A DNA stretch of 59,769 nucleotides, from NCBI GenBank assembly GCA_024226255.1, contig JAAELU010000187.1, positions 1 through 59,769 on the forward strand, given 5' to 3'. Below the pieces are notes generated by a model, which did not search any database, was not told where the DNA came from, and saw only the letters and a program-made list of their open reading frames with translations. A program made the position numbers and the translations under genes. The stretch's first letter is position 1. Each line of letters starts with the position of its first letter. Below, piece after piece: positions 5,451-11,789 of the stretch. This stretch comes from a bacterium (lineage in GTDB: Bacteria > Actinomycetota > Acidimicrobiia > Spongiisociales > UBA5794).

Positions 5451-6071
5451 TCAGTCCCACAGAGTGGGGTGGAGCGTCACGGACTGGGCAACAGGCTGCT
5501 CCCCGGGCTCAGGAGGTCCGACGAGGCGTTCGAGTAGTGCCGCCCAATCAAATGCCTCGTTCACTTCCGACGCCTGCACGGTGACGATTCGGTCAGCACG
5601 CACGTAGTTCGGAAGCATGTCGTCGAGAATCGCTTCGATTTCGTCCCGGAATTCGTCATTGACGCTGCGAACTCCGTCAACCTTGAGCGGGACATCGGGA
5701 AGGAGTCGCACGTACAGGTCGTATGTATTCGCCCAATTCTGGATGAGCGGGGTCACGTTGAAGGGGTCCACTCCCCCGGTCGACCGCAGGAAGTACGCGA
5801 AGTTGTCGACGACGGCGCGATCGGTGACGAGTACGTCGGCACGGTTCCGCAACTCCAGTTCCTGCTGAATCTGGGCCATGATCACCCAGAGCTGAGCTTC
5901 CGGGGTGGAGCCTTCGTTGAGCCCGAGCGGGTTGAACCTAATAACCTCTCGTCCAACCTCCACGCTGCGGCCGCTACGCCCAACGGCGCCGGCGAAAGAG
6001 TGGACCGCATTGGTCTTGCGGACTGAGTGCGACCCGATGAAGGCGATTTTGAGAGATGTCGGCGAACTCAT
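5451..6071 (-). CDS. AAA_28-like P-loop ATPase/kinase with an altered Walker A
   Basis: The true start is probably the ATG at 6071 (MSSPTSLKIAFIGSHS); the longer frame upstream only shadows the PfkB gene. The protein has about 206 residues. The Walker A region reads GSHSVRKT, with Arg where the last Gly of GxxxxGK[ST] is expected. DVLVTDRAVVDNFAYF resembles the Walker B/lid region of nucleoside-kinase-like AAA_28 proteins. It is placed between PfkB and DUF1905 in one minus-strand cluster. A kinase or NTPase role is inferred; the substrate is unknown. Confidence 0.7.
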   Translation of the reverse strand: MSSPTSLKIAFIGSHSVRKTNAVHSFAGAVGRSGRSVEVGREVIRFNPLGLNEGSTPEAQLWVIMAQIQQELELRNRADVLVTDRAVVDNFAYFLRSTGGVDPFNVTPLIQNWANTYDLYVRLLPDVPLKVDGVRSVNDEFRDEIEAILDDMLPNYVRADRIVTVQASEVNEAFDWAALLERLVGPPEPGEQPVAQSVTLHPTLWD

Positions 6072-6132: not shown

Positions 6133-7065
6133 TCAGCGGTCCAGAAGAGAATCGACTTGGGCGCTCGTGGGCGTCGCCCGGGCCCCAGGCTGGGCCACCG
6201 ACAGTGCCGCCACCGCATTGCCCCGAGCCAGAGCGCCGGCCAGATCGTTTCCGGCCAAGCGCGCTGCAATGAAGCCGGCGTTAAACGCATCTCCGGCGCC
6301 GACAGTGTCCACCACATCGACGGGGTAGCTCGGCGCAGAGGCCACTCCGTCCGTCGAGCACGCCATGGAGCCGTCGGCTCCAAGTCGCGCTATGACGATT
6401 CGATCGTTGCCGGCAATCGACAGGGCAGCTTCTACCGGGTCGGTCTGTTCGGTCAGCGGGACGATTTCATCGGCGGCAGCTCCAAAGACAATGTCGGACC
6501 GTTCGACCGCGGCGTCAACGACCTGACGGAATTCGTCCTCCCAGCCCCAATTCTCCAAGCGCAGATTGAGATCGAAAGAGACGGTGGTTCCGGCTGCATT
6601 GGCCTGCTCCATCGCTTCCAAGATCGCCTGGCGCGCCGGATCTACCCGCAGACACAGCCCCGAGACATGGAGCCAGTCGGCATCTGTCGAGCCAGCGAGG
6701 GCTTGCTCGGCCGATAGAAGCGCATGGGCGCCCCCCGAGGGTGGCCAGACGTAGATAAGCCGGTCGCCGTCGGCAGGGACCACCACGATCACCATCACCG
6801 TCGGGCTGCCCTGGACCGTCGCCAGGCAACTCGTGTCGACCCCAGCGCTTGCCAAGCTGGCAACCGCGAATCGTCCGTAGTCATCATCCCCGACTGTGCC
6901 CACGAACCGGCACCGCTCACCCAGGCGCGCCAAGGCCGCCGCGGTGTTGGCGGCCGATCCGCCGCCGAACAGACGAGGCTCCGGATTGGCATGCGTCGGC
7001 TTGGAGTCATGCGGGAGACGGATCTCCATGTCGACGTTCACGTCGCCGATCACGACGACGCTCAA
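6133..7065 (-). CDS. PfkB family sugar kinase
   Basis: A ribokinase-like ATP-dependent kinase of 310 residues. The N-terminal GDVNVDMEIRL and GGGSAANTAAALARLG form the sugar site. The C-terminal PfkB signature, DTVGAGDAFNAGF, carries the catalytic Asp. The start is TTG at 7065 and shares four bases (TTGA) with the stop of the TrpF-like gene, so translation is coupled and the two proteins are probably needed together. The substrate cannot be read from sequence; ribokinase, fructokinase and KDG kinase are all possible. Confidence 0.9.
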   Translation of the reverse strand: MSVVVIGDVNVDMEIRLPHDSKPTHANPEPRLFGGGSAANTAAALARLGERCRFVGTVGDDDYGRFAVASLASAGVDTSCLATVQGSPTVMVIVVVPADGDRLIYVWPPSGGAHALLSAEQALAGSTDADWLHVSGLCLRVDPARQAILEAMEQANAAGTTVSFDLNLRLENWGWEDEFRQVVDAAVERSDIVFGAAADEIVPLTEQTDPVEAALSIAGNDRIVIARLGADGSMACSTDGVASAPSYPVDVVDTVGAGDAFNAGFIAARLAGNDLAGALARGNAVAALSVAQPGARATPTSAQVDSLLDR

Positions 7066-7745
7066 GCCGAGACCTCGTTCCGGGCCGCACCCGCGAAGGC
7101 TGCCACCTTCTCGAGGTCCTTACGGAATCCGCCGTCCGCCGTGGAACGGTTGGTATGGGTCAAGGAATCGACCGCCCAGGGCTTGACTGCGGCGATCGCG
7201 TCGGCAACGTTTTCTGGCGATAGGCCGCCAGCCAGAACGACCGGGATGTCCACAGCGTTGACGATGGCGGCGCTGATCTCCCAGTCGTGGGTGGTTCCTG
7301 CCGCTCCGATGCCGTCGATGGCGGGATCCACGGAGTCGAGGATCAGGTACTCGGCGACTGCAGCGTATGTCACTGCTGCTTCGATTGCCTCTGGACCGGT
7401 CACTGCCACTGCCTGCATGATTGGGAGGCCGGGAAGTTGGCGACGCAACTTGGCGACGGCTTCTGCGTCCATGGCCCCGGGAGGCCCGCACAGATGAAGA
7501 ATGTCGGGCCTGACGGTTGCCACCATTTGCTCGATGAGCATCAGTTCGACTTCAACACTCAACGCGACACTCACGGCCTTGCCCTTGACCGCGTCACAGA
7601 TTGCGCTTGCCGTGGCCAGGTCGATCTCGCCGGGTAGGCCACGGTCGGATGGGGTCACACCCACATGGTGAACACCTCGAGCGGCAACGGCCAGGGCCTC
7701 ATCGGGCGACTGCATGGTGTAGATCTGCACGCGGGGTTGGTTCAC
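7062..7745 (-). CDS. TrpF-like TIM-barrel protein lacking the catalytic Cys
   Basis: It aligns over its whole length with phosphoribosylanthranilate isomerase. AEYLILDSVDPAIDG corresponds to the strand with the catalytic Asp, and LAGGLSPENVADAIAAVKPW is a typical TrpF phosphate-binding segment. However, the family KICG motif is replaced by QIYT, removing the catalytic Cys, and the usual DVSSGVE is replaced by DSLTHTN. TrpF activity is therefore unlikely. The start is GTG at 7745 with TACGAT six bases upstream (leaderless pattern). Its coupling to a sugar kinase suggests a sugar-phosphate isomerase role (inference). Confidence 0.75.
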   Translation of the reverse strand: MNQPRVQIYTMQSPDEALAVAARGVHHVGVTPSDRGLPGEIDLATASAICDAVKGKAVSVALSVEVELMLIEQMVATVRPDILHLCGPPGAMDAEAVAKLRRQLPGLPIMQAVAVTGPEAIEAAVTYAAVAEYLILDSVDPAIDGIGAAGTTHDWEISAAIVNAVDIPVVLAGGLSPENVADAIAAVKPWAVDSLTHTNRSTADGGFRKDLEKVAAFAGAARNEVSA

Positions 7746-10460: not shown

Positions 10461-11789
10461 ATGTCAGCTACAGACCCAGTTCCAGTAATCATCCTGGGTG
10501 CTGCGGGCCGTGACTTCCACGACTTCAACACGATGTATCGGGATGATGCATCTCACCGAGTCGTCGCGTTCACCGCCACCCAGATACCCGACATCGCCGA
10601 CCGCCGCTACCCGCCCGAATTGGCGGGACCACTCTATCCGGACGGCATCCCGATTCACGCCGAAGACGATCTCGAAAAGCTGATCGCTGAGGACGGTGTG
10701 ACTCAGGTGCTCTTTGCATATAGCGACGTCAGCCATGAGCACGTGATGCATCTGGCTGCCAGGGCCAATGCCGCCGGTGCCGATTTTCTCCTGCCGGGCG
10801 ATCGGGCCACGCTCCGTTCGACGAAGCCCGTGGTTTCGGTGACAGCCGTGCGCACCGGATCTGGAAAGAGCCAGACCGCTAGAAAGATTCGCGCCGTGAC
10901 AAACGCTGCGGGAGCTCGGGTCGCTGCCATCCGTCACCCGATGCCGTACGGCAATCTGGTGCTCCAACGATTACAGCGCTTCGAGACTTTCGCCGACCTC
11001 GAAGCGGCCGACGTCACTATCGAGGAGCGCGAGGAATACGAGCCGTACATCCGGGACGGGGCTGTCATCTTCGCCGGCGCCGACTACGAGGCGATTCTCC
11101 GAGCTGCCGAGCAGGAAGCCGACATCATCATCTGGGATGGTGGCAACAACGACACGCCCTTCATCATGCCCGACGTTGACCTCTGTGTGGTCGATCCACA
11201 TCGAGCCGGTCACGAAACGCGCTACTGGCCCGGCGAGGCCAACCTGCGGCGCGCCACGGGGATCATCATCAACAAGGTCGCCACAGCCGAAACCGAAGCT
11301 CTCGAACGGCTGCGAGCCACCATTGCGGAAGTCAATCCGATGGCAACGGTGACGGAAGCGGCATCGACGGTCCGAGTGGACGATCCCTCGATGATTGACG
11401 GCAAGCGTGTCTTGGTTGTGGAGGATGGTCCGACGACCACCCACGGCGAGATGGCCTACGGAGCCGGCTGGGTGGCTGCGAAGCAGTACGGCGCGGCCGA
11501 GATAGTCGATCCCCGGCCCTACGCAGTTGGCACGATCGTTGATGTATTCGAGCGTTTTGGACACCTCGAGCGAGTCTTGCCCGCCATGGGCTACGGAGAC
11601 GCCCAACGCGACGATCTCCGAGAGACCATCCATCGAGCGGCCGCGGACGTTGACGTAGTGGTCATCGGGACGCCCATCGACCTGGCACGAGTGCTCGCCT
11701 TGGAGGCGCCGAGTGTGCAGGTCTACTACGACCTGGAGGAGCTCCGCGGTCCGACGCTCGACGATCTGCTCCGGCCTGTGCTGCCCTGA
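10461..11789 (+). CDS. Cyclic 2,3-diphosphoglycerate synthetase-like P-loop protein
   Basis: A protein of 442 residues resembling the cDPG synthetase/COG2403 family. It has an N-terminal Rossmann-like domain (VIILGAAGRDFHDFNTMYRD), a P-loop RTGSGKSQTARKI near residue 132, DADIIIWDGGNNDTPF-type Walker B surroundings, and INKVATAE as a base-recognition-like motif. In methanogens this enzyme cyclises 2,3-bisphosphoglycerate; bacterial members are mostly uncharacterised. TAGCCT six bases before the ATG suggests a leaderless transcript. Confidence 0.82.
   Translation: MSATDPVPVIILGAAGRDFHDFNTMYRDDASHRVVAFTATQIPDIADRRYPPELAGPLYPDGIPIHAEDDLEKLIAEDGVTQVLFAYSDVSHEHVMHLAARANAAGADFLLPGDRATLRSTKPVVSVTAVRTGSGKSQTARKIRAVTNAAGARVAAIRHPMPYGNLVLQRLQRFETFADLEAADVTIEEREEYEPYIRDGAVIFAGADYEAILRAAEQEADIIIWDGGNNDTPFIMPDVDLCVVDPHRAGHETRYWPGEANLRRATGIIINKVATAETEALERLRATIAEVNPMATVTEAASTVRVDDPSMIDGKRVLVVEDGPTTTHGEMAYGAGWVAAKQYGAAEIVDPRPYAVGTIVDVFERFGHLERVLPAMGYGDAQRDDLRETIHRAAADVDVVVIGTPIDLARVLALEAPSVQVYYDLEELRGPTLDDLLRPVLP

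Follow-up and report, generated by a model that had tools for sequence, protein, structure and literature searches.

The window, the 59,769-nucleotide stretch of actinobacterial DNA analyzed here, encodes on its minus strand a TrpF-like protein and a PfkB-family sugar kinase, a partnership that recurs in other bacteria and in an archaeon. The residues, phylogeny and genomic context of the TrpF-like protein suggest that it is most likely an undescribed sugar-phosphate isomerase that takes no part in tryptophan synthesis. The fold and the kinase family are known; the changed active site and the recurrent partnership are new. We found no description of a TrpF-like/PfkB pair in the open-access papers searched, and within that literature the pair is apparently undescribed.

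The gene pair and the active site of the TrpF-like protein

The TrpF-like gene (7062..7745, minus strand) runs from a GTG start to a TGA stop and encodes a (β/α)8-barrel protein of 227 residues, identified from its open reading frame, Pfam PRAI match, PDB relatives and structural model. The kinase gene (6133..7065, minus strand) has a TTG start and encodes 310 residues with GGGSAANTA and DTVGAGDAF motifs. The preliminary description had placed both reading frames at 6133-7745 with stop and start overlapping by four bases, and the sequence agrees: the TGA stop of the TrpF-like gene and the TTG start of the kinase share TTGA at 7062..7065 (..GGCTTGAGC..). The homology of both proteins to their Pfam families is beyond chance, with 40.2 bits to PRAI for the TrpF-like protein (cut-off 22.7) and 193.6 bits to PfkB for the kinase (cut-off 25.8). 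Both genes are under purifying selection; dN/dS is 0.08-0.16 between close pairs (two pairs for both genes, two more for the TrpF-like gene alone), and they are therefore maintained, which rules out a pseudogene. No known RNA, riboswitches included, was matched by Rfam within the window. We propose that the genes, coupled in translation, act as one catabolic unit.

The AlphaFold2 model of the TrpF-like protein is a barrel (pLDDT 88.8, pTM 0.87). TrpF structures fill the first 11 ranks of its PDB matches, Thermotoga maritima TrpF (1nsj/1lbm) superposing with a TM-score of 0.79 by query and 0.87 by target. Residues 141-150, in the β6 loop, are of low confidence, and the active site is thus not readable in detail from the model; residues were mapped by aligning the family profile to T. 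maritima TrpF (1lbm/1nsj, E 7e-17), and counted in an alignment of 34 sequences that included TrpF controls. The substrate of TrpF is a 5-phosphoribosyl amine; the enzyme opens its furanose ring and moves the carbonyl from C1 to C2, an Amadori rearrangement in which a Cys is the base, an Asp is the acid, and an Arg holds the anthranilate carboxylate. The mapping places Tyr9 (codon 7719..7721, minus strand, as are all those that follow) at the catalytic Cys (C7 of T. maritima TrpF) and Gly39 (7629..7631) at the anthranilate-binding Arg (R36). Asp137, within LILD (7335..7337), is the equivalent of the general acid D126. The DVSSGVE of the TrpF β8 phosphate loop is replaced by D193-S-L-T-H-T-N199 (7149..7169); D178 aligns with D193, and S180-S181-G182 align with L195-T196-H197. 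The GGL phosphate loop is kept and SSG gives way to LTH inside D-S-x-T-x-T.

These changes characterize a whole clade. In a maximum-likelihood tree, 23 sequences form one clade apart from TrpF (support 99/97), drawn from the window lineage, Rhizobiaceae, genome G138 (Coriobacteriia-like, as judged from its gene content and size), another actinobacterium (G179), Halostella pelagica, a Limosilactobacillus plasmid, and a branch typified by locus L048. Their signature is QIY ... DSxTxT. Tyr occupies the Cys position in 22/22 members whose N-terminus is present, Gly or Ala the Arg position in 20/22, and Gln the position of K5 of TrpF; K, C and R are all present in every TrpF control. The equivalents of D126 and D178 are kept across the clade, and conservation is complete or almost complete at Asp137, Asp193, His84 and most positions of the phosphate loop. 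The alignment thereby bears out the preliminary description, which had read QIYT for KICG and DSLTHTN for DVSSGVE, with the catalytic-Asp strand and phosphate loop retained; what the alignment shows as kept is D137, D193 and the GGL loop. The loss of the anthranilate Arg (R36 to Gly39) is a further change absent from its list. Arg is kept only in the L048-type side branch (L048:8830-9489; L095:8670-9431; L096:9151-9807), where Arg36 stands alongside QIYEV and DSKTRTD and there is no kinase. One such copy lies on a Mesorhizobium plasmid near purH, SAICAR synthetase, a beta-RFAP synthase family gene and BtpA/SgcQ; two copies occur in one 8.8-Mb genome, at least one beside transposase-like genes.

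The window's genome contains a second PRAI match of 102.7 bits, above the cut-off, with KVCG and DASSGLE, lying in the order trpC-trpF-trpB on another contig. No trp genes surround the TrpF-like gene of the window. Because this genuine trpF exists elsewhere in the genome, the TrpF-like protein is unlikely, judging from sequence and context, to be needed for tryptophan synthesis. The claim made in the preliminary description that the protein lies outside this pathway thus gains support from the genuine trpF, from the clade-wide loss of Cys, and from the loss of Arg in nearly all members.

Distribution and pairing with PfkB kinases

The TrpF-like family is rare and patchy. Within the window's order it is present in 15/138 genomes, and in a phylum sample of 397 genomes five exceeded the threshold; the clade motifs occur in three of these five (G000, G138 and G179). 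G100, a weak match, has the TrpF-type KICG and falls outside the clade. Among 289 genomes of the Shinella class, the clade was found in Shinella alone, and seven genomes from the class around L019 gave no match, the L019 locus being an ordinary trpC-trpF-trpB. This patchy distribution suggests an accessory function. On a Limosilactobacillus mucosae plasmid (L047:8022-9784), the TrpF-like reading frame is truncated and the adjoining iron alcohol dehydrogenase is broken into two reading frames, a state that looks like decay of the module.

The preliminary description had coupled the TrpF-like protein to a sugar kinase and would have been refuted by a pair conserved nowhere; the pair is indeed conserved across genomes. 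Of the 15 carriers in the order, 14 have a kinase of matching type (55-68% identical) directly behind the TrpF-like gene. Ten of these 14 tandem pairs, like the Halostella pair, overlap by four bases with a standard start codon; in the other four, all from genus g24, there is no ATG, GTG or TTG at the exact overlap point. In the fifteenth carrier, G044, a different PfkB gene (32% identical) stands head to head with the TrpF-like gene. The order TrpF-like then PfkB recurs in G138, G179 and Halostella, with overlaps of 8, 8, and 4 bases, and in Rhizobiaceae the kinase and the TrpF-like gene share one locus, about 5 kb apart in its two divergent halves. When the partner kinases are placed in a tree with the other PfkB proteins of their genomes, they fall into three groups with unrelated paralogs between them: the window order with G138 (91/99), G044 with Rhizobiaceae (99/95), and G179 with Halostella (100/96). 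These groups are the reading of the best tree and not proof, since some paralog rows are fragments and the deep forks are weak. The window's genome has four PfkB matches in 5.0 Mb, and from gene number we estimate the odds of chance adjacency at roughly one in a thousand for each lineage. The pairing is beyond chance; the tandem arrangement in 14/15 carriers, its recurrence in other lineages with different PfkB kinases, and the four PfkB matches rule out chance neighbors.

The kinase itself falls far below every curated cut-off and so is not assignable to any one substrate-defined family. Its best NCBIfam score is to IolC (5-dehydro-2-deoxygluconokinase; 172 bits), followed by haloarchaeal ribose-1-phosphate kinase (152.7 bits, cut-off 330), fructokinase (148) and ribokinase (127); none of the equivalog cut-offs, about 300 to 450, is reached. 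Its nearest solved sequence, 1tyy, is recorded as a putative sugar kinase, which we take to be aminoimidazole riboside kinase. All of these proteins share the PfkB domain and motifs with the window kinase, but it lies under the equivalog cut-offs of IolC, ribose-1-phosphate kinase, fructokinase and ribokinase alike.

Gene neighborhoods and proposed function

The surroundings of the pair in the window comprise a pyrB-like gene, RidA, a dienelactone hydrolase, an AAA_28 gene and a glutamate-synthase-like pair, which name no pathway, and no nucleoside or transport genes lie beside the pair in the window lineage. The AAA_28 ATPase-like gene (5451..6071, minus strand; P-loop GSHSVRKT) lies 61 bases downstream of the kinase, and three relatives (G053, G047 and G040) have a homolog no more than about 6 kb from the pair; its relevance to the pair is uncertain. 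Further along the window, a 442-residue reading frame (10461-11789, plus strand) with a GSGKS P-loop has no Pfam match at 1e-4 and no NCBIfam match at 1e-5; it is reminiscent of cyclic 2,3-diphosphoglycerate synthetase.

In other lineages, the gene content of the neighborhoods appears to point to pentose or riboside catabolism. In G138 (L064), one strand carries an ECF transporter, the TrpF-like gene, PfkB, a nucleoside hydrolase (290.6 bits to UriH), a HAD phosphatase, an iron alcohol dehydrogenase, and a second, ribokinase-like PfkB (213.9 bits). The Halostella plasmid (L046), an unannotated record read from its open reading frames, has ribose-type ABC genes, a UlaG-like lactonase, a sugar-acid dehydratase and the D-xylose dehydrogenase Gfo6 (561.7 bits, over its cut-off) beside the pair, and a nucleoside hydrolase (Pfam, 276 bits), an ADP-ribosylglycohydrolase family protein and a BMP-type ABC system after PfkB. 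In haloarchaea other than Halostella, pentose oxidation is reported to extend to D-ribose (PMC8551123). The Rhizobiaceae loci (L043-L045) group PfkB, a methionine-gamma-lyase-like PLP enzyme, two sugar ABC permeases and a binding protein in one half, divergent from an RpiR/SIS regulator and the TrpF-like gene. For the PLP enzyme (L043:6669-7871), the score to methionine gamma-lyase is 383 bits where the cut-off is 549.7, and only 63/1412 plasmid records match it at 60% identity or more. A plasmid search with this enzyme and the solute-binding protein, for clusters in which another isomerase replaces the TrpF-like protein, returned the same loci, truncated remnants and distant homologs.

The retained phosphate side and acid, the changed base, the missing anthranilate Arg, the kinase partner, and the nearby nucleoside hydrolases and pentose genes together fit an isomerase that moves a carbonyl from C1 to C2. 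Catalysis, the order of kinase before isomerase, the base, and the class of substrate are what we infer from these features. The proposal of the preliminary description, an isomerase of another sugar phosphate working with a sugar kinase outside tryptophan synthesis, is supported in part. The PfkB kinase would phosphorylate the 5-OH of a pentose-containing compound, either a riboside or a pentose released from one, and the retained TrpF phosphate site would bind this 5-phosphate. Asp137 would serve as general acid in opening the furanose ring, and the carbonyl would be moved from C1 to C2 with the help of some base that is not Cys, with Tyr9 and the DSxTxT loop as candidates; the resulting ketose phosphate or Amadori-type product could enter central metabolism. 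We consider the chances of this riboside or pentose salvage route, in which the kinase makes a 5-phosphopentosyl compound for the TrpF-like protein, to be about even. A broader proposal, that bacteria and archaea share an undescribed riboside/pentose pathway built on a TrpF-fold isomerase with a new base that has acquired distinct PfkB partners on at least three occasions, is more tentative. The main loose end is the Rhizobiaceae PLP enzyme, for which plain ribose salvage does not account; what this enzyme acts on may point to the substrate of the whole locus.

That enzyme fits better with an Amadori deglycase, in which the kinase would phosphorylate an imported sugar-amine conjugate and the TrpF-like protein would reverse the Amadori rearrangement to free sugar phosphate and amine. 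The chemistry of TrpF is itself an Amadori rearrangement, and the Rhizobiaceae clusters join a sugar ABC importer, kinase, RpiR regulator and amino-acid PLP lyase; kinase followed by deglycase is the known logic for fructosamines (PMC9609667). This reading is nevertheless unlikely: the fructoselysine 6-kinase model gives the window kinase just 103 bits, below several other families, and the nucleoside hydrolase clusters need no deglycase. Distinctly unlikely is a ribose-1,5-bisphosphate (R15P) isomerase analog, whereby the kinase would convert ribose-1-phosphate to ribose-1,5-bisphosphate and the TrpF-like protein would convert this to ribulose-1,5-bisphosphate, as in the haloarchaeal pentose bisphosphate pathway. 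Haloarchaeal ribose-1-phosphate kinase, the second-best family for the window kinase, shares operons with R15P isomerase (PMC9700705), and the HAD phosphatase and iron alcohol dehydrogenase of G138 could belong to such a route. Yet the clusters contain nucleoside hydrolases and not phosphorylases, which would make ribose and not ribose-1-phosphate, and no aldolase was seen in them; the G138 HAD is nearest to phosphoglycolate phosphatase (85 bits), and the alcohol dehydrogenase reaches just 26 bits to glycolaldehyde reductase. Moreover, the R15P isomerase family was not found, the G138 and Halostella clusters having no isomerase besides the TrpF barrel.

A plain isomerase of ribose-5-phosphate or another pentose 5-phosphate, serving the kinase, would be the smallest chemical step away from TrpF and would suit the ribose-linked neighbors, but is very unlikely for ribose-5-phosphate or its relatives: RpiB is present in 7/7 carriers tested, G000 included, which would render such an activity on ribose-5-phosphate redundant. 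It is also highly improbable that the TrpF-like protein is a non-catalytic partner that binds the kinase to regulate or stabilize it. The lost Cys and the tight translational coupling are compatible with a TrpF-fold pseudoenzyme, and plants are reported to have another indole-pathway pseudoenzyme (PMC12727527); against this stand the near-invariance of Asp137, Asp193, His84 and most of the phosphate loop, the separation of gene and kinase in Rhizobiaceae, where the TrpF-like gene instead neighbors the regulator across a divergent promoter, and the origin of the partner kinases in three lineages. That the protein is a divergent working TrpF or a back-up for the tryptophan pathway, as the public annotation of its homologs as phosphoribosylanthranilate isomerase implies, is almost certainly wrong and is ruled out by the lost Cys and Arg, the genuine trpF, the absence of trp genes nearby, and a best NCBIfam TrpF score of 102.5 bits against an equivalog cut-off of 216.

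Comparison with known systems

The preferred reading, a sugar-phosphate isomerase acting with a kinase, bears on annotation. Under their current label, the clade proteins are counted as tryptophan genes in pathway predictions, which they very probably are not; the QIY ... DSxTxT signature makes the clade easy to re-annotate and test. Should the reading hold, the TrpF barrel, which serves as a model in work on enzyme evolution and design, would include a natural branch that uses another base on another substrate, and a route of sugar salvage spread from Rhizobiaceae to haloarchaea would have been overlooked.

With T. maritima TrpF the protein shares its fold, Asp126, Asp178 and the GGL phosphate loop; it differs in the replacement of Cys7 by Tyr, of Arg36 by Gly, and of SSG, in its location outside a trp operon, and in being a second copy alongside a genuine trpF. 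Nearer in the tree are Cys-less TrpF homologs with QVAG, which group with the clade at 97/90 under midpoint rooting and likewise have a ribose-linked context, in clusters of NRPS, upp and PsuG genes; they differ in having no kinase beside them, a DAHSLLE motif, and a minimycin-like gene set. These homologs (L087:7545-8414; L088:7746-8426; L089:7746-8426) come from Agrobacterium vitis, Streptomyces lavendulae and Corynebacterium aurimucosum, and each stands first in a set with upp, an NRPS, a tautomerase, a PsuG-type C-glycosynthase and an EamA transporter; the published five-gene minimycin cluster names no TrpF.

R15P isomerase belongs to the eIF2B-like family, and the FraB/FrlB deglycases are SIS-fold proteins. 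The R15P isomerase and deglycase readings both have precedents, each with another protein fold. The haloarchaeal operon of ribose-1-phosphate kinase and R15P isomerase (PMC9700705) resembles the present pair in joining a PfkB kinase to an aldose-ketose isomerase for nucleoside ribose, but its isomerase is of another protein family, it has a phosphorylase where the clusters here have a hydrolase, and its aldolase is missing here. FraD/FraB and FrlD/FrlB (PMC9609667) likewise place a kinase before an enzyme acting on a C1-C2 amine/carbonyl system, whereas here that second enzyme would be a TrpF barrel, and among the cluster proteins scanned a SIS domain occurs in the RpiR regulator alone.
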